Source of the DNA: Actinomycetota bacterium
GTDB lineage: Bacteria > Margulisbacteria > Marinamargulisbacteria > GCA-2716485
Direction: 5' to 3'
NCBI GenBank assembly: GCA_002716485.1
Contig: PBBE01000053.1
Coordinates: 1 to 34,639 of the forward strand
DNA length: 34,639 nt
Positions 1 to 34,639 of this stretch are shown in pieces. The position numbers and the translations under genes were made by a program. Under the pieces are notes generated by a model that saw only the letters and a list, made by a program, of their open reading frames with translations, had not been told where the DNA came from and ran no database searches. How positions within the stretch are numbered: the stretch's first letter is position 1; every line of letters begins with the position of its first letter.

Positions 1-1200
1 CAAGCAATAATAAATCCAACCTAATATTCCTCCAGCTAAAATCAAAGTGGTCCAACTTGCAATCTTCATCACTAACTTGGATCTTATTTCCAGTAATTTT
101 TTATATAATATTGCAATTTGGTTCAACTTTCCTCCCAATCGCCCTGACAACTCTGCATCCCGTAAAATTTTACTTACTAACTTAGGGAATACCTGCTTAT
201 GTTCAAAGGTCGAAGAGAGTCGCTTCCCCTCAATTAATTGGGATTTGATTGCTTGGATTTCTTTTTGATAGACCAAATTGTCACTCACATTATTTAAAAT
301 ATCAAAACACTGCAATATCTTGACCCCGTTTTTTTCTAACAAATAAAAGTGTTTAAACATTTTGGTCACTAAAAACATTTTGACTGCACCATTGATCATC
401 GGAATCTTTAATATCCCTTGATGGTATCGATATCGAACGCCCTTAATGCGTCCCAATATATATAACGCAATAACTCCAACCACAATGTTCTTTAGTGTCG
501 GTATCAAATAGGTATTAATGGCCATTAAAATATCCAATGAGATCTTAGTGCGCATCAGTGTGGTTTCTTTATAATAAACGGCCTTATGCAGCTCAGGCGC
601 AAAGATAAATGCCAATACATAGATAAATATCCCAATTAGGCCCACTAAGCGTGCGATCCCATATATCATGGACATCATCTCTTTTTTTTCTTTACTTTTC
701 CATTCTAAAAACAATAAGTTTTCCTTGAGAATCTCCTGTAACTTGCCCACTCGCTCACCTGTTTTAACCCCCACAATATAAATATCTGGAAATAAGTAGT
801 TATATTCCATTAGACAATCACTTAGCTTTTTTCCTTTTTTAATATTGGTAATCATTCGATTGACCATTAACCGATAACTGAGTGAAATAAATAACCCTTT
901 CATTTCAATCATGGCATCTAATACTTGTAAACCTGAGGCCAATAGTTCTTGTAGTTCTTGGGTAAATAACAGCAACTGGTCCTTACTTAAACGTGGACGC
1001 AATATAGTATGATAAAACGATTTAAATACCAATTCACAGACGGCACTAAGTATGGGCCCTAAATTAGTCAGCTCAATATTAGCGCCTTCTTTATTTCGCT
1101 TAAGCTCATATACGGTCCACTCTTTTTCAACTTCAGAAATAAGCCCTTGTGTACGGTGGCCTTTCTCATCTAGTGTCCGATAGTAATACCATAAGTTCAT
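1..1200 (-). CDS. gspF: GspF/PilC-type inner-membrane platform protein (3' end outside window)
   Basis: Polytopic inner-membrane protein on which the assembly ATPase acts in type II secretion and type IV pilus machines. Reading the minus strand from the ATG at 1200 gives 400 uninterrupted codons up to the window edge, so the C-terminus is missing, probably by only a few residues because the frame ends inside the last hydrophobic helix. Two T2SSF repeats are visible, at about residues 72-195 and 275-390. Each has the amphipathic start (LSKDQLLLFTQEL; VTKMFKHFYLLEKNGV) and the family motif KTGERVGKL or DAELSGRLGGKL. Hydrophobic segments lie near 180-202, 228-250 and 378-400. The start overlaps the stop of the upstream ATPase gene as ATGA, so the two are translationally coupled. 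GspF and PilC cannot be separated from the sequence alone. Confidence 0.9.
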   Translation of the reverse strand, partial: MNLWYYYRTLDEKGHRTQGLISEVEKEWTVYELKRNKEGANIELTNLGPILSAVCELVFKSFYHTILRPRLSKDQLLLFTQELQELLASGLQVLDAMIEMKGLFISLSYRLMVNRMITNIKKGKKLSDCLMEYNYLFPDIYIVGVKTGERVGKLQEILKENLLFLEWKSKEKKEMMSMIYGIARLVGLIGIFIYVLAFIFAPELHKAVYYKETTLMRTKISLDILMAINTYLIPTLKNIVVGVIALYILGRIKGVRYRYHQGILKIPMINGAVKMFLVTKMFKHFYLLEKNGVKILQCFDILNNVSDNLVYQKEIQAIKSQLIEGKRLSSTFEHKQVFPKLVSKILRDAELSGRLGGKLNQIAILYKKLLEIRSKLVMKIASWTTLILAGGILGWIYYCL

Positions 1201-2735
1201 TCATTGATCTCCATGACCCTCGCGACTTCTTCAATGGTAGTAAGGCCTTTTGATACTTTTTCTCTGGCATCATTAATCATCGGAACAAACCCTTGGTCAA
1301 TGGCGGCATTTCGAATTTCTAAAAATGACCGTTCTTCATAAATCTGACTCCTTAAATGGGTATTAATTTCTAAAATTTCTACCAAAGCCACTCTTCCATA
1401 ATACCCGGTTCCTAAACAGGACTTGCAGCCCTTTCCCCGCTTATATGATTTCTTTTTTAACCCTATTTGCTTTAATAGTTTTGGATCTGGGGAATAGGAC
1501 TCACTACATTCGTTACAAACCCGACGTGCTAACCGCTGAGAGACCACCATATTAAGCACTGTTGACACAATATAGCGTGTCAGCCCTAAATTACATAAAC
1601 GATCAATACTTCTTACGGCATCATTACAATGAAGTGTACTTAGTAAAAGGGCCCCTACCAGTGCATTTTGAACCGCTACCGACACTGTTTCTTGGTCCCG
1701 AATCTCTCCTACTAAGATGACATCAGGGTCTTGTCTCAAAAAAGAGCGGCAAGTACGGGCAAAATCCATGTTAATTTTGGCATTTACCTCCACCTGATTA
1801 ATCCAATCGAGTCGTTTTTCAACCGGATCTTCCACCGTTAGAATCTGTCGACTGACGTCATTAATTTTATCTAATAAGGCATATAAAGTCGTGGTCTTTC
1901 CTGAGCCAGTGGGCCCAGTAACCAACATAAGCCCTGAGGATCGGGTACTGCCTTGAATTAATAAAGACTCATGATACTCAGAAAAGCCTAACTCTGATAA
2001 GTGATGATAAATCTGATATGAATCATGGATTCGAATGGTAATTTTCTCCCCATAAATCGCACCTATCGTGGCGACTCTTAAATTGACTTGCCGGTCCCGA
2101 ATTTGAATAATAAACTGACCATCTTGAGGCAGCCGAGATTCAGCAATATCCATTCCAGCATCAATTTTAATAATATTACCAATGACGACTGCCGCACTAC
2201 TGGGTAATGACTGAAATAAATGGAGTACGCCATCAATTCTCAAGCGAATATTTAATTTATCTTTACCAGGTTCAATATGGATATCTGAAGCACGATGGGT
2301 AATGGCATAATAAAACAACATATCTACAATTTGAACCCAAGAGGGCTGACCTTTTACTAAAATTAATGACACGGGATCTAATTCTCGGACTAAAAATGAG
2401 GCTTCTGCTTCTTTCTCAACGCCACCTTTAAAATCAGATACACTCTCAAAGACCTCTTCAAAACGCCCAAAATGACTAATTAAGGCATGTTGAAGCTCAA
2501 AAATATCAACCCTTACCAAGTGACAGGGGCCTTGGACCTCTTGCTCAATTAAATCTTTTAATTCAATATTATGAGGCTGGTCGGTCCCTATAATTAACAC
2601 CCCATCTTCAATGGCCAATGGTAAAATATGATGCTTTTCAATGAGCCTGACCGGTAATGATGACATCAAACTGTCATCTAAAGTTAAATTTGAGATATTA
2701 TTGACTTCATCTGGCCCAATATTTAAGTATGCCAT
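1197..2735 (-). CDS. gspE: GspE/PilB-family assembly ATPase
   Basis: Cytoplasmic hexameric ATPase that powers pilus or pseudopilus assembly. Residues 20-100 match the MshEN/T2SSE N-terminal domain (ILPLAIEDGVLIIGTD). The core has RASDIHIEP (148-156), Walker A GPTGSGKT (274-281), Asp box TVEDPVE (300-306), Walker B DPDVILVGEIRD (336-347) and His box STLHCNDA (366-373). The zinc-binding tetracysteine C407-C410-C437-C440, typical of extension ATPases (GspE/PilB/MshE), is intact. At 512 aa it is somewhat shorter than PilB (about 565). The start shares a base with the secretin stop (TAATG) and the stop overlaps the gspF start, so the three form one operon. No retraction ATPase (PilT) is seen in the window. 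Confidence 0.95.
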   Translation of the reverse strand: MAYLNIGPDEVNNISNLTLDDSLMSSLPVRLIEKHHILPLAIEDGVLIIGTDQPHNIELKDLIEQEVQGPCHLVRVDIFELQHALISHFGRFEEVFESVSDFKGGVEKEAEASFLVRELDPVSLILVKGQPSWVQIVDMLFYYAITHRASDIHIEPGKDKLNIRLRIDGVLHLFQSLPSSAAVVIGNIIKIDAGMDIAESRLPQDGQFIIQIRDRQVNLRVATIGAIYGEKITIRIHDSYQIYHHLSELGFSEYHESLLIQGSTRSSGLMLVTGPTGSGKTTTLYALLDKINDVSRQILTVEDPVEKRLDWINQVEVNAKINMDFARTCRSFLRQDPDVILVGEIRDQETVSVAVQNALVGALLLSTLHCNDAVRSIDRLCNLGLTRYIVSTVLNMVVSQRLARRVCNECSESYSPDPKLLKQIGLKKKSYKRGKGCKSCLGTGYYGRVALVEILEINTHLRSQIYEERSFLEIRNAAIDQGFVPMINDAREKVSKGLTTIEEVARVMEINE

Positions 2736-4447
2736 TAATAGGTTCCTGCCATTTCAGGTTCATTAATTCGAACAATATACGGGGTAATTAATACGGTAAT
2801 TTCCAATTTCTTTTCGGTGATACTTTCAAACGTAAACCATCCCCCTACTACCGGCAACGCACTTAAAAAGGGAACTTTTTTAACTATCACGCCTTTTTTG
2901 TTTTGGATTAGCCCACCAATCACAATGGTTTGGCCATCTTTAAGTAACACCTGGGTATCTGCCTGGGTTGTACTGGATCGAGGCGTATTATTCTCCACCA
3001 ACCCTTCCGAAATTTCAGGTTTAATTTCCATTAGAATCTCATCACGGTCATTAATATGAGGCGTGATTTCAAGGGTAACTCCTGTATTTAGAAACTTAAT
3101 ATTTTCGATGACTGATGTGTTACTTCCTGTGGAGGTGGTACTTTGGGTCGTATAGCCTTGGGTGGTCCCTGTATTAATATTGGCTTTTTGATGGTTAGTC
3201 ACTAAAATTTTAGGGTTAGCTAAAACATCCACATCACTTCGATTTTTAAAGGCAGCCATAAAATCCACTGCAGGCACTTTAATATCGGCCAGTCCCATAA
3301 AATAATCGCCACTCTCTTTGAGAACTTTACTGGTCTGCGCGAACATCTTTTGAAAGTCTATGCCCAGCCCTTCACTTACATCATAATTTGATTCTATAAT
3401 CACCGCTTCAATTCGAACCTGCTTCGGCCGAACATCTACCTGGCGTATTAGTTGTTCTAACTGATTTAACTTGCCGATACTGCCCTTCGCAATAATACTA
3501 CGTTCTGTAGGCTCAATGGTCATTTCGGATAATGAAGAAATGTTTTTGATGGAATTAAGGACATCTTCTACACTTAAATAATCCAAAGAGATGACCCGAA
3601 GCGGCTCTTGGTTTTCAATTTTGATCATATCATCTTTTAAATACCAGCTACACTTCCAATAAGTTAAAACACTTTCTAATAGGTCAATAGGGTGAATATT
3701 CTCATAACTAATGGTGATCTCTTGATTGGCTTGGCTGGGATTGGCGTCATAGACAATATTTAAATCAAATTCATCTGCTAAGAGTGGAATCAAGGTATTC
3801 ATATCAATTTTTTCAAAGCGATAGTCACCCCGCTCCTCAAGTCCAATATGTCGCTTTAAGATCATGTAGGCCTCTTTCTGATCAATATACAATTCCCTGG
3901 CAAAACCAAATTTGGAAAGGGATGTTTTAACCCCTGAATAATGGACACTTATTGCATGGGTTTTTGTATTATTTTGCCCTATTTTTCCTTCAAAAATAAT
4001 ATGATTTTGAGGAGATTGCTGAGATAATAATAACGAATACACAAACTCGCCCTTGGCTTGCAGTTCGACCTGGCTGCCATTGATTAACAACTGATTCACT
4101 CTTGAATTGAGGACCTGCCCCTTAATCGTTAAGGTATTTTGAGTGACTTTTTGCTGGTCTCTTGGTGTATAGATCTTAATCCAAGGATGTTCTCGTGACA
4201 TTAATTGATACGGGCTTTCAACTGTTTGAAAATGGGATGTATCGCTGGGGCTTATTGACCCTTTAGGGACCTCTTCTGGGACACTCACGCTTGTAGCAGC
4301 AGCAGGTAACACCCAAGACTGATGGGCGCCATAGGACGGTAAATGAGGCTGAATATGAGGCTCTTCTGCATGTATCTGACCACTGGCCATCCACGCTGCA
4401 ATCCCTACTCCTATTACGGCCTTTTGTAAGCACTGCTTGATACTCAT
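2735..4447 (-). CDS. Outer-membrane secretin (GspD/PilQ/MshL family) with N-terminal Ig-like domain
   Basis: Multimeric outer-membrane channel through which a pilus or substrate leaves the cell. Residues 1-27 are a signal peptide ending at IHA. Residues about 88-170 look like an Ig/PKD-type beta-sandwich (PWIKIYTP, TIKGQV, INGSQVELQAKGEF, FEGKIG), which is unusual at this place. A short secretin/TonB N-terminal domain follows (about 207-283), then an N1-like domain (about 286-340) and the secretin domain (about 343-565) with VRIEAVIIE, VLANPKILVTNHQKANINTG, GVTLEITPHI and LKDGQTIVIGGLIQ. The last 40 residues (FLSALPVVGGWF ... VLITPYIVR) are classic. It starts 2 nt after the preceding gene, with AAGGAG about 12 nt upstream. 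It could serve either a type II secretion system or an MSHA-like pilus. Confidence 0.93.
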   Translation of the reverse strand: MSIKQCLQKAVIGVGIAAWMASGQIHAEEPHIQPHLPSYGAHQSWVLPAAATSVSVPEEVPKGSISPSDTSHFQTVESPYQLMSREHPWIKIYTPRDQQKVTQNTLTIKGQVLNSRVNQLLINGSQVELQAKGEFVYSLLLSQQSPQNHIIFEGKIGQNNTKTHAISVHYSGVKTSLSKFGFARELYIDQKEAYMILKRHIGLEERGDYRFEKIDMNTLIPLLADEFDLNIVYDANPSQANQEITISYENIHPIDLLESVLTYWKCSWYLKDDMIKIENQEPLRVISLDYLSVEDVLNSIKNISSLSEMTIEPTERSIIAKGSIGKLNQLEQLIRQVDVRPKQVRIEAVIIESNYDVSEGLGIDFQKMFAQTSKVLKESGDYFMGLADIKVPAVDFMAAFKNRSDVDVLANPKILVTNHQKANINTGTTQGYTTQSTTSTGSNTSVIENIKFLNTGVTLEITPHINDRDEILMEIKPEISEGLVENNTPRSSTTQADTQVLLKDGQTIVIGGLIQNKKGVIVKKVPFLSALPVVGGWFTFESITEKKLEITVLITPYIVRINEPEMAGTY

Positions 4448-26815: not shown

Positions 26816-27215
26816 GGTGGTAATGTCCTATTGTATTATTTTACTGAGACTCATTCTCATTTTGCATAATATTTTATTCACAATAAAAGATCAAGACCTA
26901 CTTTAAAATGCCCCATACGAATATGGGCCAGCTTCCTTATTATTCTGTCTACTTTTATTTACTTCCTGTCTTTTTTTAGGGCGCCTATTGCCGATCCTTT
27001 CTTATCTGCACAACGGGTCACCATTGAATGTGAAATTTCACCATGTTTAAAGCACTTATTTCCTGGGTATGTCTTAGATATAGCAAATAGGACACGGATC
27101 AACCATTGCTTGCCTAAGGACCCCCCTCCTTTAAAAAAGACTTTTTTTTTTTATGTCGGGGATATCCATCTGATCCCCCCTCTTTGCTGTGATCATATTA
27201 ACAAAAGAGGGAATT
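26816..27215. other. 400-base gap with an ATG-less open frame and homopolymer runs
   Basis: The gap before the PorV-like operon. It contains runs T7 (26971-26977), C6, A6 and T11 (27142-27152), and an open frame in plus frame 2 described separately. No terminator or promoter could be placed with confidence. Confidence 0.5.
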
Positions 27216-27268
27216 ATGTCAGGATTAAAGGGGGTGCTTATCGGTTGCTTAAGTGTATTGCTCATTAG
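26870..27268 (+). pseudogene. Possible degraded or phase-variable small exported protein gene
   Basis: One plus frame stays open for 132 codons without an ATG, GTG or TTG near its start. It encodes a hydrophobic helix (IWASFLIILSTFIYFLSFF) followed by a soluble Cys-containing stretch (QRVTIECEISPCLKHLFPGY, then RINHCLPKDPPP) and ends inside the next gene. An ATG frame (26908, MPHTNMGQ) runs into a stop at the T7 tract, exactly where a one-base slip would join it to the helix frame. The T11 tract lies later in it. It may be a decayed gene, a switchable one, or chance. Confidence 0.25.
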
Positions 27269-28109
27269 CCCCAGTTATGCCAGCCAATTTTTCCAAGATA
27301 CCATCCTACTAGATGGCTTTAGTAAAGGGTACGCCATTACGGCCGATACCCAAGGTAGTGACGCTTTATTTAAAAACCCTGCCGCCGTTACCAATACCTT
27401 CACTAATGAATTGAACACGAGCGCGTCCTCTTACTATGATGACTTGTTTAAAACGGCTTACTTTCGACTAAAGCGTCCGCTTTCTTCGTCATGGATCGCC
27501 GCCATTCAAGTCCCTGTTCAGCGTCACCAAAACATGGCCATTACAGGCCTTAATACGACTTCAGGAGAATTCTATCAAGTCAGTACCTACGCTGACTCCC
27601 TATTTGCTACCATTGCCACTATTGGCCATCAAAAAAATGATACCGGTATGGCCTTTGGGACCAGTATCGGAGTATACCAACATCAAATCCATACCCGAAA
27701 AGAAACACGACTAGGCATTGATATTGGTCTTTTAAGCCCCTTTAAATATGGTCAATGGGGCCTATCACTTCAAAGTATTCAGACCTTGTCTCCTTTTTCT
27801 ATTTTAAGTAGCCTTCAAAGTCAGTACCAAGCAAATATGGGGTTCCATATTCTTGGCACGTCATGGCGTCCAGACCTTCTCACTGATATTAGCTTTTCGC
27901 CAAACCAACCTGCCCAAATAAACCTTGGTCTTCGCTACTCTTTAACTAATATCTTATCTATTACAGGGGGCGTATTCGACCTTAAAACCCAACGAAGAAT
28001 GAGCCTGGGAGTCAACCTCAACCTACCCAACTATGCTATCCAATATGGCTATGGTCATGCGGGGATCTTAGGAAATATCCATAAAATAGGAGTTACCCTT
28101 TATGACTAA
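27216..28109 (+). CDS. PorV/FadL-superfamily-like outer-membrane beta-barrel protein (first copy)
   Basis: 297-aa exported protein. The ATG at 27216 has GAGGGA 3-8 nt upstream and begins a signal peptide (MSGLKGVLIGCLSVLLISPSYA); a GTG at 27189 in frame is less likely. The mature start is typical of the PorV/PorQ/UPF0164 group: a GFSKGYAITADTQGSDALFKNPAAV segment in which NPA is the hallmark, followed by alternating strands, SGEFYQVSTYADSLFATIATIG, and an aromatic-ended C-terminus (KIGVTLYD). PorV is known as the outer-membrane shuttle of type IX secretion; other family members have unknown roles. It overlaps by 8 nt the gene for a subtilase with a T9SS-like C-terminal domain, a likely cargo. 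Confidence 0.7.
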   Translation: MSGLKGVLIGCLSVLLISPSYASQFFQDTILLDGFSKGYAITADTQGSDALFKNPAAVTNTFTNELNTSASSYYDDLFKTAYFRLKRPLSSSWIAAIQVPVQRHQNMAITGLNTTSGEFYQVSTYADSLFATIATIGHQKNDTGMAFGTSIGVYQHQIHTRKETRLGIDIGLLSPFKYGQWGLSLQSIQTLSPFSILSSLQSQYQANMGFHILGTSWRPDLLTDISFSPNQPAQINLGLRYSLTNILSITGGVFDLKTQRRMSLGVNLNLPNYAIQYGYGHAGILGNIHKIGVTLYD

Positions 28110-29739
28110 ACTATCTCGTGGATTCAGTCTATTCCTGGTCCTTCTTCCTGTACTGCTATTTGCACAGCCTTCCCAGCCTCATTTAGTGATTATTAAATAC
28201 CATAATAGCAACCCCTTATCCCAACAGCTTTCCGGAGGCAATGACCTGAGCACTCAAACTCAAATCAATACTCACCCTGTGGTTCACTCCTCTAAATCAA
28301 TGACGATGCCTCAATCATCTATTTATATGCCGAGCCAGGGCCTTTCCCCCGTCCAGTTTGCCCAATACCAAATGGCCACGATTAAAGAAAGTATCTCTCT
28401 TGATCAGGCCGTTTCTGAGCTCTCTCAACTCTCTGGCGTCGAGTATGTGGAGCCGGTGTACCCGGTCCATCTACATGAACAAATTAATGACCCCTACTTT
28501 GATCAACAACCTTACCTTCATCAAAGTAATCTGCACCAGCTATGGCGATTAAATGGACTGGCCAATGTTGTTGTGGCTGTAATCGATACTGGAATTGACA
28601 CCACACATCTTGATCTCAAAGATCAAATCTATGAAAATCCATTTGAACAACTCAACGGAATTGATGATGACGGAAATGGCCTCATCGATGATATCACTGG
28701 ATATAACTTTTTTAATTATTCCCTGAGTGGCGGTGCGCCTAACCCCAATGATGAGCACGGCCATGGGACTCACCTTGCTGGTATTATTGCTGCCAAACGA
28801 AATAATACTATTGGTATTTCAGGACTCTCTAGTCAAAGTTTACTATTAAACCTTCGATTCCTAGATAAGAATGGGATGGGCACCCAGGTAGATGCGGCCA
28901 TGGCCATTCGGTATGCGGCGGATATGGGCGCTAAGATCATTAATTGTTCCTGGGGCTACTTTCGACTCAATACCATTCTAAAAGAGGCCGTGGAATATGC
29001 CTTATCTAAGGGCTGTATTATTTTTGCAGCCACGGGTAATAGTCAAACGGATGTGCCAGAATACCCTGCAAGTATTTCCGGTGTAATTGCCGTGGGCTCG
29101 GTAAATCTTAATCATGAACGATCTAGCTTTTCTAGCTATGGTAGCTATGTGGACTTTGTGAGTTATGGCGAGCAAATTTATTCCACCTTGCCCAATCAAT
29201 CCTATGGCTATAAAACGGGGACCTCCCAAAGCACCGCGATTATGTCAGCAATGGCGGCAGAAGTCTTATCCTATCAACCTAACCTGACCCGACACGACCT
29301 AGAATCCCTATTTGAACAAACCGCCTCTAATAATCATCAGTCCTCTTACTTTGTAGGACATGGCATTGTGGATCCTAATCGTCTCTTACTTGGCTTGAAT
29401 GTTGACTCTGATCTGGACAACCCTTTTACTGTGATCTTTGAATCTTCTAGCCAAGACCTCAACCTGGGTGAATGTCTCAATTATCCGAACCCTGTCATGG
29501 GAAACCATACCACATTTGGTTTTTCTTCTGATAAAAATGATGTACCTGTTAAAATCCATATCTTTTCATTGGTCGGCCAAAAAATAAAAACCATCGAAAA
29601 ATCGAGTACAAACGCGTATAATACCATTAGATGGAATATTGATGAACATATTCCCAATGGCACTTATATTTATGTTGTTGAAGCGACGTACAATGGCCAC
29701 CCTTATTACCAAAAGAAACAACTGAGCATTATCAGATAA
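28102..29739 (+). CDS. Secreted subtilisin-family (S8) protease with FlgD/T9SS-CTD-like C-terminal domain
   Basis: 545-aa exported serine protease. Signal peptide at residues 1-21 (ending LLFAQ), then an I9-type propeptide region (about 25-130). The S8 domain has Asp162 in VAVIDTGID, His221 in EHGHGTHLAG, oxyanion Asn313 in AATGNS and Ser375 in GTSQSTAIMSA, a complete triad although QST replaces the common MA(A/T)P. An Asp-rich calcium-type loop (GIDDDGNGLIDD) sits at 187-198. Residues about 464-545 form an Ig-like domain with LNYPNPVMGNHTTFGF, VKIHIFSLVGQKIKTIE, and IPNGTYIYVVEA, the pattern shared by FlgD-Ig and the type IX secretion sorting domain (TIGR04183-like). It follows a PorV-like barrel gene with an 8-nt overlap. 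Confidence 0.9.
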   Translation: MTKLSRGFSLFLVLLPVLLFAQPSQPHLVIIKYHNSNPLSQQLSGGNDLSTQTQINTHPVVHSSKSMTMPQSSIYMPSQGLSPVQFAQYQMATIKESISLDQAVSELSQLSGVEYVEPVYPVHLHEQINDPYFDQQPYLHQSNLHQLWRLNGLANVVVAVIDTGIDTTHLDLKDQIYENPFEQLNGIDDDGNGLIDDITGYNFFNYSLSGGAPNPNDEHGHGTHLAGIIAAKRNNTIGISGLSSQSLLLNLRFLDKNGMGTQVDAAMAIRYAADMGAKIINCSWGYFRLNTILKEAVEYALSKGCIIFAATGNSQTDVPEYPASISGVIAVGSVNLNHERSSFSSYGSYVDFVSYGEQIYSTLPNQSYGYKTGTSQSTAIMSAMAAEVLSYQPNLTRHDLESLFEQTASNNHQSSYFVGHGIVDPNRLLLGLNVDSDLDNPFTVIFESSSQDLNLGECLNYPNPVMGNHTTFGFSSDKNDVPVKIHIFSLVGQKIKTIEKSSTNAYNTIRWNIDEHIPNGTYIYVVEATYNGHPYYQKKQLSIIR

Positions 29740-30678
29740 ATGAAAACCCCGTCCTTAAGCCCCACTCTCTCTCACCCAGCAGCCATTCTTTTGGCCCAAA
29801 AAATCCAATCCATTGTTCACCGCTACCAAGCAAACTTTGCCGACTTGTTTGTCCAACAAAAACCCAATGGCTCTTATGTGACTAGCCTTGATTATGCATT
29901 ACAGCTACTCATTACTCATTGGGCCCGCCCTTCATCACTAATCGCTGAAGAAGATATTTCATTACTACTAAAGCCAGATCATGCCGCCTTTAAATCAGCG
30001 GTTCATTATCTCATTCAATTATCGGGTACCCGTCACTCCTTAGATGAGTTGATCCAAGCGCAATGTAATCTCCCTAAGGTCCCCCAAGGTCACTATTGGG
30101 TCCTTGACCCTGTGGATGGAACCAAGGGACTGTTGAATCAAGAGGAATTCTCTACGGCTATTGCGAGCTTGACGGACACACGCTCACAAAGTGCCATTAT
30201 TGGCAGCTTTGGCTACCCTGATCCCGGCATGACCATGTTCATTAGCACCCAAGATCACCCTGAGATCAGTATCATCACGCCTCTTTCTAACACCCCTGAG
30301 ACTTTAGACCTTCCTCCTGATGGCCCCATGGTTATTTGTTTATCTCGGGGTCGATTTCAATCTAAAATTGCGCCTTATCTACAATCCAAACGACCTGATA
30401 TTCAATTTCTATGCCTTCATAGTCAATGTAAATATGTTGCCTTACTCTTAAACCATGCTTGTGCTTATATTCGCTGTCCCAACCCTGATGGCCGCCGTGA
30501 ATATATCTGGGACCACTTACCTGGTATTATTTTGGCCCAAAAGGCAGGCTTTATTGTGTCTGACTTTAAAGGCCATGCCATTGAAACACAAGGAGATACC
30601 CTTCTACATAACCGTGGTATCCTGGTCTGTCGACCCTACCATCACCCATTATTATTATCCCTTCTTAGTTCTTTTTGA
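29740..30678 (+). CDS. Inositol-monophosphatase-superfamily phosphatase, Hal2/PAP-phosphatase-like
   Basis: 312-aa cytosolic magnesium-dependent phosphatase. Visible motifs are KPNGSYVTSLDYALQ (41-55), IAEED (68-72), HYWVLDPVDGTKGLLNQEEF (118-137) with the metal ligands Asp123 and Asp126, and REYIWDHLPGIILAQKAGF near residue 257 with the third Asp. The VLDPVDGTKGF-type motif and the long middle section favour the Hal2/SAL1/MET22 branch (3'-phosphoadenosine 5'-phosphate phosphatase) over simple inositol phosphatases. Its ATG follows directly on the subtilase stop (TAAATG), so it is co-transcribed. Why a sulfur-metabolism type enzyme sits in a secretion operon is unclear. Confidence 0.85.
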   Translation: MKTPSLSPTLSHPAAILLAQKIQSIVHRYQANFADLFVQQKPNGSYVTSLDYALQLLITHWARPSSLIAEEDISLLLKPDHAAFKSAVHYLIQLSGTRHSLDELIQAQCNLPKVPQGHYWVLDPVDGTKGLLNQEEFSTAIASLTDTRSQSAIIGSFGYPDPGMTMFISTQDHPEISIITPLSNTPETLDLPPDGPMVICLSRGRFQSKIAPYLQSKRPDIQFLCLHSQCKYVALLLNHACAYIRCPNPDGRREYIWDHLPGIILAQKAGFIVSDFKGHAIETQGDTLLHNRGILVCRPYHHPLLLSLLSSF

Positions 30679-30746
30679 CCTCTAATTAATATTTGTTTTT
30701 TTATATATTAATTTAAATATATTATAATCAACACTCCCCACCCATC

Positions 30747-30775
30747 TTGACTTATTAATAATAATTTAATATTAT
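30747..30775 (+). promoter_or_regulatory. Putative sigma70-type promoter of the second PorV/CTD operon
   Basis: TTGACT (30747-30752), a 17-bp spacer and TATTAT (30770-30775) lie in the AT-rich 220-base gap after the phosphatase gene. The leader to the ATG at 30899 would be about 117 nt. Confidence 0.5.
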
Positions 30776-30898
30776 GTATGCCAATAGTAATACTTATATT
30801 AATTGACTATGTTTATAAAAAAGCATGTAAGTAGATCATCAAGGTAAGTTTCCAATACAAATAATCCCAAGCAAATATAAATCACAGAGAGTTTCAAG

Positions 30899-31522
30899 AT
30901 GTCTATTTCCCCTTTATCCCTATATCGCCCCCTTATCTCTGACTTATCAGCACGCTATTTTGGCTTTCTTTTTTTCTTTTTATTATTTTTATTTAGCTTT
31001 TTTTCGGTTACACACGCTATGAAACTGGAGTATTACAACCACTTTATAGAAGTAAGGGATCCATTTCCTACCCAATCGACCCAATCATTGGTCCCAATTA
31101 GTATTAAATTTACAAGCCCCCTAGAATCCACCGCACCGGGAAGTGAGACGCCCCCTATTAATTCTACCCCCCTCGTTGAATCTGAATTTAAACTTTTAAA
31201 AGACCCCCTTGTCAGCCCTAGCCCCATGTCCTTTTCTCAAGACACTCAGTTAGGATTTGGATTTCTGGGTGCAGGGACCATTGAATTTAAATTCTTTGAT
31301 ATGTTTGGCACCCAAATCGCCCAGCATATCATTGATGAAACGACCCTAAAGGTCAATCAATCCTATGAAACCTATGGGGACTTTACGGGTAAGTTTTATT
31401 CGTTCCCTATTAACCGAGACCTATTCAATGGCATCCAATTGCCATCCGGGCCCTACTTCTTCTTAATGATTCAAGGCGATCGGGTCCTACATAACGGCAC
31501 CTTTTTGGTGAGCGCCTCATGA
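30899..31522 (+). CDS. Exported protein with FlgD/T9SS-CTD-like C-terminal domain
   Basis: 207-aa protein of no assigned family. A long signal or signal-anchor (RYFGFLFFFLLFLFSFFSVTHA) ends near residue 40, with GAGAG 7 nt before the ATG. Residues about 41-115 are Pro/Ser/Thr-rich and probably extended. The C-terminal 90 residues contain TIEFKFFDMFGTQIAQHII and LPSGPYFFLMIQGDRVLHNG, the closing pattern of FlgD-Ig and type IX sorting domains (G.Y.. .. .G.. ...F.V). It overlaps the start of a second PorV-like gene by 4 nt. As a whole it looks like a small cargo or partner subunit of that barrel, an inference from position and fold. Confidence 0.6.
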   Translation: MSISPLSLYRPLISDLSARYFGFLFFFLLFLFSFFSVTHAMKLEYYNHFIEVRDPFPTQSTQSLVPISIKFTSPLESTAPGSETPPINSTPLVESEFKLLKDPLVSPSPMSFSQDTQLGFGFLGAGTIEFKFFDMFGTQIAQHIIDETTLKVNQSYETYGDFTGKFYSFPINRDLFNGIQLPSGPYFFLMIQGDRVLHNGTFLVSAS

Positions 31523-32460
31523 GATATGGGTGGATATGGTTGAGCCTGCTTTTGGCGCTTGGCTCTCTTCAGCTTCAAGCAAAAGACTATTTATTAATGG
31601 ATCGGATTGGCATATCGGCCGAGTCTATTGCCTTAGGGCGGGTTATGGGAAATTCTAATCAAGCGAATGCTATCTTTGGGAACCCAGCTGCCTTATTTCG
31701 TATTCCTCGATACTCTATTTCCGCCTTCAACTTGTCTCATATGAATCATCGGGTCCAATTTTTTAATTTGGCAGCAGCCTATCGATGGGGGGATGGTGTT
31801 TTTTCTATGGGTGTACTTAGAGGCAGTACCAACGGTATTCCAGTGGTTTCTGACTTTATTCAAACGGATTCGACCCATTACCGAAACGTGATGACAAAAC
31901 TAGCCTATCAGCGCTTGATTAATCCTCGGATTTCGGTGGGGCTTGCCGGCACTTATTATCTAACTTCTTCACATTTACAAACAGGTAAGGGAACGAATAT
32001 TGATCTGGGTCTCATTTATCGTCGTAAAGATAGCCATATTGGCCTCTTACTTAAAAACATCTTGCCAAGATCAGTTCAGTATTCTCATCAATCTGAGTCT
32101 GATTTTTCAGCTCAAGAAGCGATCCCAAGCGCCTTACAGGTCTCCTTAAAATCGGCACCAACTATGGGCTTACAGTTTCTTCCTCAACTAAATTTCTCTC
32201 GCCATTCTCTTGCCAATGGGGATAAGTCCTTTTTTATACTGCCTTCTATGGGTGTTTTATTCCACCCTATTCATTGGCCCTTAATTGACTTACGTGCCGG
32301 CCTTCATCGTGAGCTGAGTATAACACTCACCCAACGAACCCGCTATGCCTTTGGCATTGGCCTTGACTTATATAACTTATATTTCGCTTATACTTTTGAG
32401 CGAAATGAATTTGAGTTGGACCCTAATATGCATTATTTTTCTGTCAGCATTAACCAATAA
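31519..32460 (+). CDS. PorV/FadL-superfamily-like outer-membrane beta-barrel protein (second copy)
   Basis: 313-aa exported protein. Signal peptide MRYGWIWLSLLLALGSLQLQA (to about residue 21). The mature start has the same hallmark as the first copy, GRVMGNSNQANAIFGNPAAL with NPA, followed by repeated beta-strand patterns (SISAFNLSH, AYRWGDGVFSMGVLRG, VGLAGTYYLTSS, IDLGLIYRRK, AFGIGLDLYNLYFAY) and the terminal HYFSVSINQ. The two copies are similar in size and layout but not close in sequence, so not a recent duplication. It overlaps the CTD-like gene before it by 4 nt and lies 20 nt before the large repeat protein gene. The barrel may export or anchor one of these. Confidence 0.65.
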   Translation: MRYGWIWLSLLLALGSLQLQAKDYLLMDRIGISAESIALGRVMGNSNQANAIFGNPAALFRIPRYSISAFNLSHMNHRVQFFNLAAAYRWGDGVFSMGVLRGSTNGIPVVSDFIQTDSTHYRNVMTKLAYQRLINPRISVGLAGTYYLTSSHLQTGKGTNIDLGLIYRRKDSHIGLLLKNILPRSVQYSHQSESDFSAQEAIPSALQVSLKSAPTMGLQFLPQLNFSRHSLANGDKSFFILPSMGVLFHPIHWPLIDLRAGLHRELSITLTQRTRYAFGIGLDLYNLYFAYTFERNEFELDPNMHYFSVSINQ

Positions 32461-32480: not shown

Positions 32481-34639
32481 ATGACAGCATCTACCCCCCC
32501 ATCTTATTCGAAAGCAAAGGCCTTTATCTTTGCCCTTATGGCCAGTCTCTCACTCTCGTCAGGGCTATACGCACAAGAGACTGAGGATCTTAACTATATC
32601 AAAGTCCAAGCCCAATTTTCAGAACAAAGCACGGGTGCCTTAATTAACGGGAACCGTGATGTCACCGTTCAAATTACCAAAGGGGACCAAGACTCAGAAT
32701 CTGAACAATGGTCTCAACTCTTTTCTGACACGCCTTTTGTGGATGGCTTCGTAAGCCTTGAGTTAGGAAAGGACCCTAACAATCCCCTCTCCGCAGATAT
32801 TTTTGATGAGTCTAACTGGATCCGGTTCACTGCAAGTGATGACTCTGGTAACTCTAATACTGCGGTTATTCCTATCTTAGCAGTTCCTAAGGCCATTAAA
32901 TCAGAACGGGCCTCTTCTTTGGGTATCTCTGATCGCCTTTCGATCACCTTAGACCCCCTCACAGATCAACTCATTGTCTCGGGTAACTTAACGCTGAAAT
33001 CAATTAATGCCGTATCTACATCCAATTTTAACCTTTTGACCCAGGACCAAAATCAATTGGTCCAAGTGAACCCTGGCGGACATGCCAACCAAGTCCTCAA
33101 AGTTTCTTCTGAAGGCAACTCCTTTGACTTGGCTCCAGCCTTATTACTAGGCTCAGAAGATCCCCAAACGTTTACTGGTACTCAATTCGTTATTGGAAAC
33201 GAGTCTGAACTACAAGTTCTAGGTTCGCTTCGAATGAATACTACCAATGACCCCATTGCCTTTTCAGGACTTAGTAATGATTTTAGAGTGATCAATAATG
33301 CCTTGAGCATTAATACAGATGCCCTTCCACAAATACCGGCCATGTCAAACTTGGGTCAGTCTCTGGTGGCTGCTGATACAAAGGAAAATGCCCATACTGT
33401 TTTGGGAATCTCAGAACTTGGCTTTATTAATCAAGAAACCCTTAGTGAACAAGGCTTTTTAACCAGTGTTCCTGAAGAATTTGTTACTGAAACCGAGCTA
33501 AACACACAACTATCTAGCAGCTTAGCGCCTTACTCTTCTGCCACTTTTACCAGTGACTCGGACGGTTTGGTCCCCAAATCATCTACAGCAGGCGACCAAA
33601 ATAGGTTTCTTAGAGGAGATGGGACCTGGCAAACACCGTCAGGATCTGATATGGCGCTTTTTTCGGATACCGCCGCTGGACTCGCACCTCAAATCGACTT
33701 AGGTGACGAACATAAATTTTTAAAAGGGGATGGAACCTGGGGCACCCCCCAAGGAACTACTTACGGAACATTCGACAACGATAACCCTGGACTGGTCCCT
33801 GCGCCTGGTGCCGATAAAAGCACCCATTTTTTACGTGGGGATGGTGAATGGGTAACGGCCCCTACTGACGGCACGGGTACTGATAACCAAGATATTGAAG
33901 GCTCTGTATTAACTGACCAAATCCTAACAATTGGAATTAAAGATGGTAGTTCTCAAGACGTGGAACTAGGTCATTTATATGCACCGCTTTCAGGAGTAAG
34001 TGCAGTGGGGACCTTGGTACCCCCCTCTAACGCTGAGTCACAAAATAAGTTTCTTAAAGGAAATGGGACTTGGGGAGAGGTTGTCAGTAACGGAAGCGGA
34101 ACCGATGATCAAGATATTTCTGGTTCTGGTTTAGCAGGTCAGATCCTAACCATTGGAATTGAGGATGGTAATTCAGAAGAGGTGGACCTAAGCGCATTAT
34201 ATTCAGTATTTTCAATAGATAGTACTGAAGGGTCTTTGGTTCCTGCCTCTACTGTTGATGAGAAAGATAAGTTTCTAAAAGGCGATGGGACTTGGGGCAC
34301 CCCTACTGATACGACTTATAACCCCTTTTCACCCGCTACCAACAGTGACTCTGGGAGCACGGGCCTTGTCCCTGCACCACCTGCGACAGCTCAGGTCAAA
34401 TTTCTAAAAGGCGACGGCACTTGGGACACTCCTTCTGATACGACTTATAATGCCTTTTCAGGCGCTGATGGTACTAATTCAGGAAGCGCTGGGCTTGTAC
34501 TTGCGCCAGCGGCGGATGATAATCTCAAGTTTCTTAAAGGCGATGGCACTTGGGACACACCTCCCGGTACAACTTATAGCCCCTTTTCAGGCGCTGATGG
34601 TACTAATCCAGGAAGCCTTGGGCTTGTACTTGCGCCAGC
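32481..34639 (+). CDS. Large secreted protein with tail-fibre-like KGDGTW repeats (3' end outside window)
   Basis: Open frame of at least 719 codons running off the right edge, with AGGAGGA 7-8 nt before the ATG. Signal peptide: KAFIFALMASLSLSSGLYA. Residues about 35-145 match a pattern known from large surface proteins of many bacteria: GALINGNRDVTVQITKG, WSQLFSDTPFVDGFVSLELG, and IPILAVPKAIKSERA (compare ADLF...W and VPYAFRA types). A central region of 200 residues follows. From about residue 360 the repeats begin, each with (K/R)FL(K/R)G(D/N)GTW, ending in variants of TTY and GLVPAP. Such GLVPAP-KFLKGDGTW units are familiar from phage tail fibres and from bacterial adhesins that end in a trimerisation/endosialidase-chaperone domain. 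The C-terminus is not in view. It follows the second PorV-like gene by 20 nt. Confidence 0.85.
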   Translation, partial: MTASTPPSYSKAKAFIFALMASLSLSSGLYAQETEDLNYIKVQAQFSEQSTGALINGNRDVTVQITKGDQDSESEQWSQLFSDTPFVDGFVSLELGKDPNNPLSADIFDESNWIRFTASDDSGNSNTAVIPILAVPKAIKSERASSLGISDRLSITLDPLTDQLIVSGNLTLKSINAVSTSNFNLLTQDQNQLVQVNPGGHANQVLKVSSEGNSFDLAPALLLGSEDPQTFTGTQFVIGNESELQVLGSLRMNTTNDPIAFSGLSNDFRVINNALSINTDALPQIPAMSNLGQSLVAADTKENAHTVLGISELGFINQETLSEQGFLTSVPEEFVTETELNTQLSSSLAPYSSATFTSDSDGLVPKSSTAGDQNRFLRGDGTWQTPSGSDMALFSDTAAGLAPQIDLGDEHKFLKGDGTWGTPQGTTYGTFDNDNPGLVPAPGADKSTHFLRGDGEWVTAPTDGTGTDNQDIEGSVLTDQILTIGIKDGSSQDVELGHLYAPLSGVSAVGTLVPPSNAESQNKFLKGNGTWGEVVSNGSGTDDQDISGSGLAGQILTIGIEDGNSEEVDLSALYSVFSIDSTEGSLVPASTVDEKDKFLKGDGTWGTPTDTTYNPFSPATNSDSGSTGLVPAPPATAQVKFLKGDGTWDTPSDTTYNAFSGADGTNSGSAGLVLAPAADDNLKFLKGDGTWDTPPGTTYSPFSGADGTNPGSLGLVLAP
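33606..34639 (+). repeat. Tandem repeats coding KFLKGDGTW units; 37-, 74- and 43-residue spacing
   Basis: The codon for Phe of the KFLKGDGTW core occurs at 33606, 33717, 33828, 34050, 34272, 34401 and 34530. Steps are 111, 111, 222, 222, 129 and 129 bases, all multiples of three. The 222-base step is twice the 111-base one, but its extra half is a distinct domain (GTDxQDI ... ILTIGI.DG.S). The last 129-base copies are nearly identical in DNA. Confidence 0.9.

Follow-up and report, generated by a model that had tools for sequence, protein, structure and literature searches.

Our genome context analysis of a 34,639-nucleotide contig (PBBE01000053.1 of assembly GCA_002716485.1, referred to below as the window) suggests, with a probability of about one half, that the locus near its end comprises two modules belonging to an outer-membrane export and display system of type IX-like character in the phylum Margulisiibacteriota. 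We count in favor of this reading a C-terminal sorting domain (CTD) scoring over the model cut-off, the family of the barrels, the pairing of CTD and barrel genes, their conservation in the class, the covariation of the partners, a giant barrel and the subtilase genes that adjoin it. Counted against it are the lack of recognizable GldLMN, a GldK signal confined to a common domain, the near absence of C25 peptidases, low TM-scores to SprA, a short sequence match to SprA that extends to phage tail proteins, PDB profile searches that do not find SprA and the result on partner specificity among small-CTD pairs.

The earlier note on this DNA had placed the module outside Bacteroidota, and this is borne out: the host belongs to Margulisiibacteriota, which in the NCBI placement is part of the Cyanobacteriota/Melainabacteria group, outside both Bacteroidota and FCB. 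Near-relative loci carry the names Marinamargulisbacteria or Margulisiibacteriota, and one of them (L068) is the contig of G001, which belongs to the same order as the window genome. Genes of the type IX secretion system (T9SS) occur in Bacteroidota and possibly in other FCB phyla, and have been stated to be absent elsewhere (PMC11285876). Our literature search (preprints not covered) returned no paper linking Margulisiibacteriota or Margulisbacteria with a T9SS or a system of this kind. The window genome (G000; 1.4 Mb) is 56% complete and absences in it mean little, so the searches described below were extended to the whole phylum.

Table 1. Features of the two modules and of the gene lying between them (window positions)
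Feature	Position	Strand	Remarks
Barrel 1	27216..28109	+	exported PorV-like outer-membrane barrel, 5' of the subtilase gene; longest ORF 27189-28109 from GTG, ATG at 27216
S8 subtilase	28102..29739	+	exported, with C-terminal sorting domain; Peptidase_S8 2.3e-55; barrel 1-subtilase order conserved
Subtilase CTD (type A, T9SS-type)	29482..29685	+	residues 461-528; TIGR04183
IMPase-like gene	29740-30678		between subtilase and small exported protein
Small exported protein	30899..31522	+	CTD-like C-terminal half at ~31211-31513; family A4
Barrel 2	31519..32460	+	PorV/PorQ-family, paired with the small CTD protein; NF033709 4.4e-12
Long exported fibre-like protein	32481..34637	+	third gene of module 2; ORF runs off the contig end

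The genes noted earlier were found in their places, together with both of the overlaps described: the frames of barrel 1 and the subtilase share 8 nt, and those of the small protein and barrel 2 share 4 nt. According to the ORF reading of the window, the long fibre-like frame begins 20 nt past barrel 2; this third gene had been absent from the earlier note, as had the recurrence of the two modules next to each other in relatives and the giant barrel described below. We considered the IMPase-like gene for membership in the module and dismissed it, since it was not seen next to the module in the related loci that we inspected.

The first module combines barrel 1 with the subtilase, whose C-terminus scores 29.7 bits against TIGR04183 (cut-off 23). 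The same site reached 32.8 bits in the genome search, which recovered five TIGR04183 CTD sites over the cut-off in the window genome. The catalytic motifs of the subtilase are invariant across 5 orthologues. Barrel 1 has no HMM match of its own; it aligns with barrels encoded 5' of the orthologous subtilases in four related loci (L120, L125, L129 and L133), several of which match the PorV_fam model NF033709. The pair of barrel 1 and CTD-subtilase recurs in all four of these loci, and in two of them (L129 and L133) it directly adjoins the triad of module 2 (small CTD protein, barrel and long exported protein). The subtilase may process exported proteins, a PorU-like role performed by another protease fold.

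In the second module, the small exported protein gave no HMM match itself, and 14/16 aligned members of its family match TIGR04183 at E <= 0.01. The type B model, TIGR04131, was not among the NCBIfam matches of the CTDs, which match TIGR04183 instead; some of them also match PF13585 (CHU_C) weakly. Taken together with the subtilase score, this assigns the C-termini to the type A family, in agreement with their earlier reading as FlgD/T9SS-CTD-like domains. Barrel 2 scores 46 bits against NF033709, under its 90-bit cut-off, and has two paralogues in its own genome, on contigs C25 (2e-21) and C47 (4e-15), the former of which passes the PorP_SprF model PF11751. Within the barrel-2 family, 18/19 members match PorV and PorQ and 6/19 match PorP/SprF, the single match to FadL (1/19; Toluene_X, Pfam) being weak. 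This count goes against the FadL-type assignment that the earlier note had named among the findings that would refute its proposal.

The small CTD protein and its barrel are followed by a gene for a long exported protein in three copies within the window genome (the window, C25 and C47) and in 11/20 of the fetched class contexts, and the position of the third gene is kept in both sets. The fibre-like protein of the window shares its N-terminal domain with the corresponding fibre of L119 (3.3e-6), which in addition has a weak Peptidase_G2 match, and the L126 protein shows a borderline match to the gp37 trimerization domain. The third gene of C47 encodes a C-terminal Peptidase_S74 domain (1.1e-13), which in the tail fibres and spikes of phages acts as an intramolecular chaperone. 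A CTD was not seen in those third-gene proteins that are complete enough to judge; the window copy lacks its end.

Several variants of the PorV-family barrels were also observed. A PorV-like barrel of the window genome (L020:7108-9423, on G000:C8) carries an S-layer homology domain (SLH, 6.4e-10) fused to its C-terminus and lies directly 3' of a gene for a 1,132-aa CTD protein. Many PorV-family frames of the phylum are 600-800 aa long and may carry extensions like this fusion. A solitary PorV-family barrel, with no CTD neighbor and in a neighborhood common to three relatives (L130:5644-6582, L134:5501-6430 and L137:5438-6361), is perhaps a general shuttle.

The association of CTDs with barrels extends over the phylum. 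PorV-family barrels were found in 35/36 genomes (with a match over the cut-off in 15/36), and matches to the PorU model in 33/36, nearly all of them at the CTD end of that model. Among the 149 such CTD matches listed in these 36 genomes, 51 have a PorV-family barrel at most 500 bp downstream on the same strand versus 0.09 expected, where the expectation assumes uniform placement, ignores shared ancestry, counts a few repeat matches within single proteins and serves as a guide, not as a p-value. Ten further CTDs among the matches listed lie 0.5-2.5 kb downstream of a same-strand PorV-family barrel, which is the arrangement of barrel 1 and the subtilase.

Another explanation would be that these are unrelated pieces, with the CTDs being FlgD/Ig-like adhesion domains, the barrels FadL-type transporters and their adjacency a result of the general clustering of envelope genes. 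The folds are indeed alike, single barrels reach TraF_2 or Toluene_X weakly, and CTDs without known machinery have been noted in Poribacteria (PMC3909097). Nevertheless, the TIGR04183 score over the cut-off, the preponderance of PorV/PorQ over FadL matches, the pairing at ~500-fold above expectation (among the matches listed) with fixed order and strand, and the covariation at the level of module types described next make this explanation improbable.

To what extent each barrel serves its neighbor, as the earlier note supposed, depends on the level of comparison. The CTD and barrel distances correlate (r = 0.42 over 32 pairs), and true partners outperform swaps made within a genome (p = 0.002; 32 pairs, two of which, L011 and L012, contain 'CTDs' that are probably no CTDs). 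Thus the supposition is supported between module types. It was not supported among the small-CTD paralogues, as no partner-specific co-evolution could be detected when only the small-CTD pairs were compared (rank 32 among 96 for the true arrangement).

A search for T9SS core genes elsewhere in the genome, which the earlier note had called for, led to a candidate pore. The SprA model TIGR04189 gave local matches to long ORFs in 25/36 genomes and in 0/14 controls, never over its cut-off and restricted to one region (positions 585-716). Most of the matching genomes have this ORF from a single family of giant barrels of ~1,300-1,850 aa, present in 71/74 genomes of the phylum and in 34/34 good ones. 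The copy of the window genome (G000:C30:10060-15039) lies outside the window and adjoins queA. The predicted structure of the C-terminal 1,197 residues of the L079 giant barrel (pLDDT 80.7) contains ~35 long strands; the SprA/Sov translocon has 36 strands. In Foldseek comparisons of the C-terminal part, three SprA chains were the top PDB matches with a fourth at rank five, and for the N-terminal half (from L068) a phage tail protein came first and SprA, at ranks 2, 3 and 5, was the top outer-membrane match; the TM-scores of the SprA matches are low (0.14-0.16), and as SprA is the largest solved barrel its length may favor it in such a ranking. The sequence signal common to the giant barrel and SprA is limited to one short hairpin segment, which occurs in phage tail proteins too. 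Profile searches of the PDB with the giant barrel did not find SprA, and no useful relative was obtained for the PorV-type barrels or for the small CTD family in this way. Because of the low TM-scores, the possible length bias and the hairpin-only sequence signal, we call this protein SprA-like rather than SprA. We regard the giant barrel as the likely pore and its identity with SprA as putative.

Outside the class of the window, a subtilase gene adjoins the giant-barrel gene in 27/45 genomes (convergently in 26), and those of these subtilases that were read in detail have CTD-type tails and catalytic motifs.

The surroundings and relatives of the giant barrel yielded other observations. Shorter paralogues (e.g. 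L001, G008:C38:6883-7221, and L002, G032:C1:1378515-1378886), with frames of ~850-1,080 aa, occur in many genomes of the phylum and give the best scores of all with the SprA model (as much as 51 bits). An amidase-like gene is located 3' of the giant-barrel gene in three class genomes (L063, L064 and L065). ExbB-like and TonB-like ORFs, judged by eye, lie near the giant barrel in L064 and offer a possible lead to an energy source.

The same components could in principle provide surface anchoring without type IX transport, so that the CTD proteins exit by another route, the PorV-like barrels only hold their CTDs at the surface and the giant barrel does something else. A possible other outer-membrane route is encoded in the window itself at 1197-4447 (a secretin together with an ATPase of the T2SS/type IV pilus type), no Gld motor was found (see below), and type B CTD proteins of Bacteroidota anchor to PorP-like barrels (PMC9143113). 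On the other hand, the secretin and the ATPase may be parts of a type IV pilus, transport is the role of CTDs and PorV-type barrels in those cases that have been studied (PMC12618676, PMC10994853), and a subtilase adjoins the giant barrel in 27/45 genomes outside the class. We consider anchoring alone unlikely.

The motor and the sortase of the T9SS were not recovered. GldL was found in 0/36 and GldN in 0/74 genomes, GldM gave two matches, neither over the cut-off, and GldK was matched only in the region of its common FGE-type domain, never over the cut-off; the GldL, GldM and GldN models matched no control genome either. The C25 peptidase domain (PF01364) was detected in 1/36 genomes and not in the 56%-complete G000. 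The frame with its sole occurrence (G031:C19:23121-24188, 1.1e-51) spans 3,856 aa, includes a CTD match as well and has a PorV-family barrel gene downstream. A search of the own-genome barrel against plasmids found nothing.

These results could be explained by a complete but strongly diverged T9SS, with a Gld motor, ring and sortase beyond the reach of the models. The failure of three Gld models on the control genomes, the weak GldM matches in two genomes and the C25 domain in one are all compatible with this explanation. However, GldN is missing throughout a set of genomes in which the giant barrel is present in every good one, and the giant barrel is adjoined by subtilases, not by C25 proteases. 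A complete T9SS appears quite unlikely. Of the two readings offered by the earlier note, the full T9SS is not supported, whereas a different export route built on the same pair fits better, with the giant barrel as its likely pore; of the core genes to be sought in the genome, only a SprA-like one came to light, and gldKLMN and a C25-type PorU did not. We refer to the system as T9SS-like and do not class it as a T9SS because the motor and PorU features that were tested for were not found.

For the type IX-like reading preferred here, we envision the following scheme. A Sec signal peptide would bring the CTD proteins to the periplasm, where a dedicated PorV/PorP-like barrel encoded by the adjacent gene would catch the CTD, and the cargo would then cross the outer membrane via the giant SprA-like barrel encoded elsewhere. 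Module 1 would deliver the CTD-tagged subtilase, which may mature exported proteins. Module 2 would deliver the small CTD protein, which would be retained on its barrel and could serve the long fibre of the next gene as an anchor or assist it in reaching the surface. More tentatively, we see a possible case for a type IX relative of its own kind, which would combine a SprA-like giant barrel with many one-cargo PorV-like shuttles, employ a CTD-subtilase for PorU, operate without a GldKLMN motor, and have among its cargo long fibres surfaced via a CTD provided in trans on a small partner.

If this more tentative reading is true, type IX-type export reaches beyond FCB, either by ancient origin or by early transfer. 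A phylum-wide version with no recognizable motor, in the cyanobacterial group, would bear on the age and the minimal parts of the shuttle-and-giant-barrel mechanism, and on whether a PMF motor and a C25 sortase joined it only later. The conserved CTD-barrel gene pairs constitute a natural test set for how shuttles recognize CTDs, and the triad of small CTD protein, barrel and fibre suggests how fibre proteins that have no CTD could reach the surface.

Among known systems, the closest is the T9SS of Bacteroidota (SprA/Sov, PorV, PorU, GldKLMN and the type A CTD, TIGR04183), in which type A cargo is carried out of SprA by PorV (PMC10994853). Shared with it are the combination of a Sec signal with a type A-like CTD, the PorV/PorQ-family barrels and a giant outer-membrane barrel for which SprA is, at the low TM-scores given above, the best match among solved structures. 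The system described here differs from it by its non-FCB phylum, the lack of recognizable GldLMN and the near absence of the C25 protease. PorU resembles our subtilase in being a CTD-bearing protease, the gene of which here lies close to that of a shuttle barrel or adjoins the giant-barrel gene; however, PorU is a C25 cysteine protease, and the subtilase is an S8 serine protease, in which CTD cleavage or LPS attachment would be hypothetical. The second comparison is with the type B CTD/PorP-SprF pairs of Bacteroidota, whose CTD proteins depend on the barrel of the next gene downstream (PMC12618676) and anchor to PorP-like barrels (PMC9143113). Module 2 has the same order, with the barrel gene directly 3' of the cargo gene; its small CTD protein may likewise stay anchored on the barrel, and a part of the barrel-2 family matches PorP/SprF. 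In contrast to the type B pairs, the CTDs match the type A model, and a third gene encodes a fibre-like protein with no visible CTD. Finally, while the T9SS relies on one general PorV, the system of Margulisiibacteriota has many barrels, each paired with a cargo gene.
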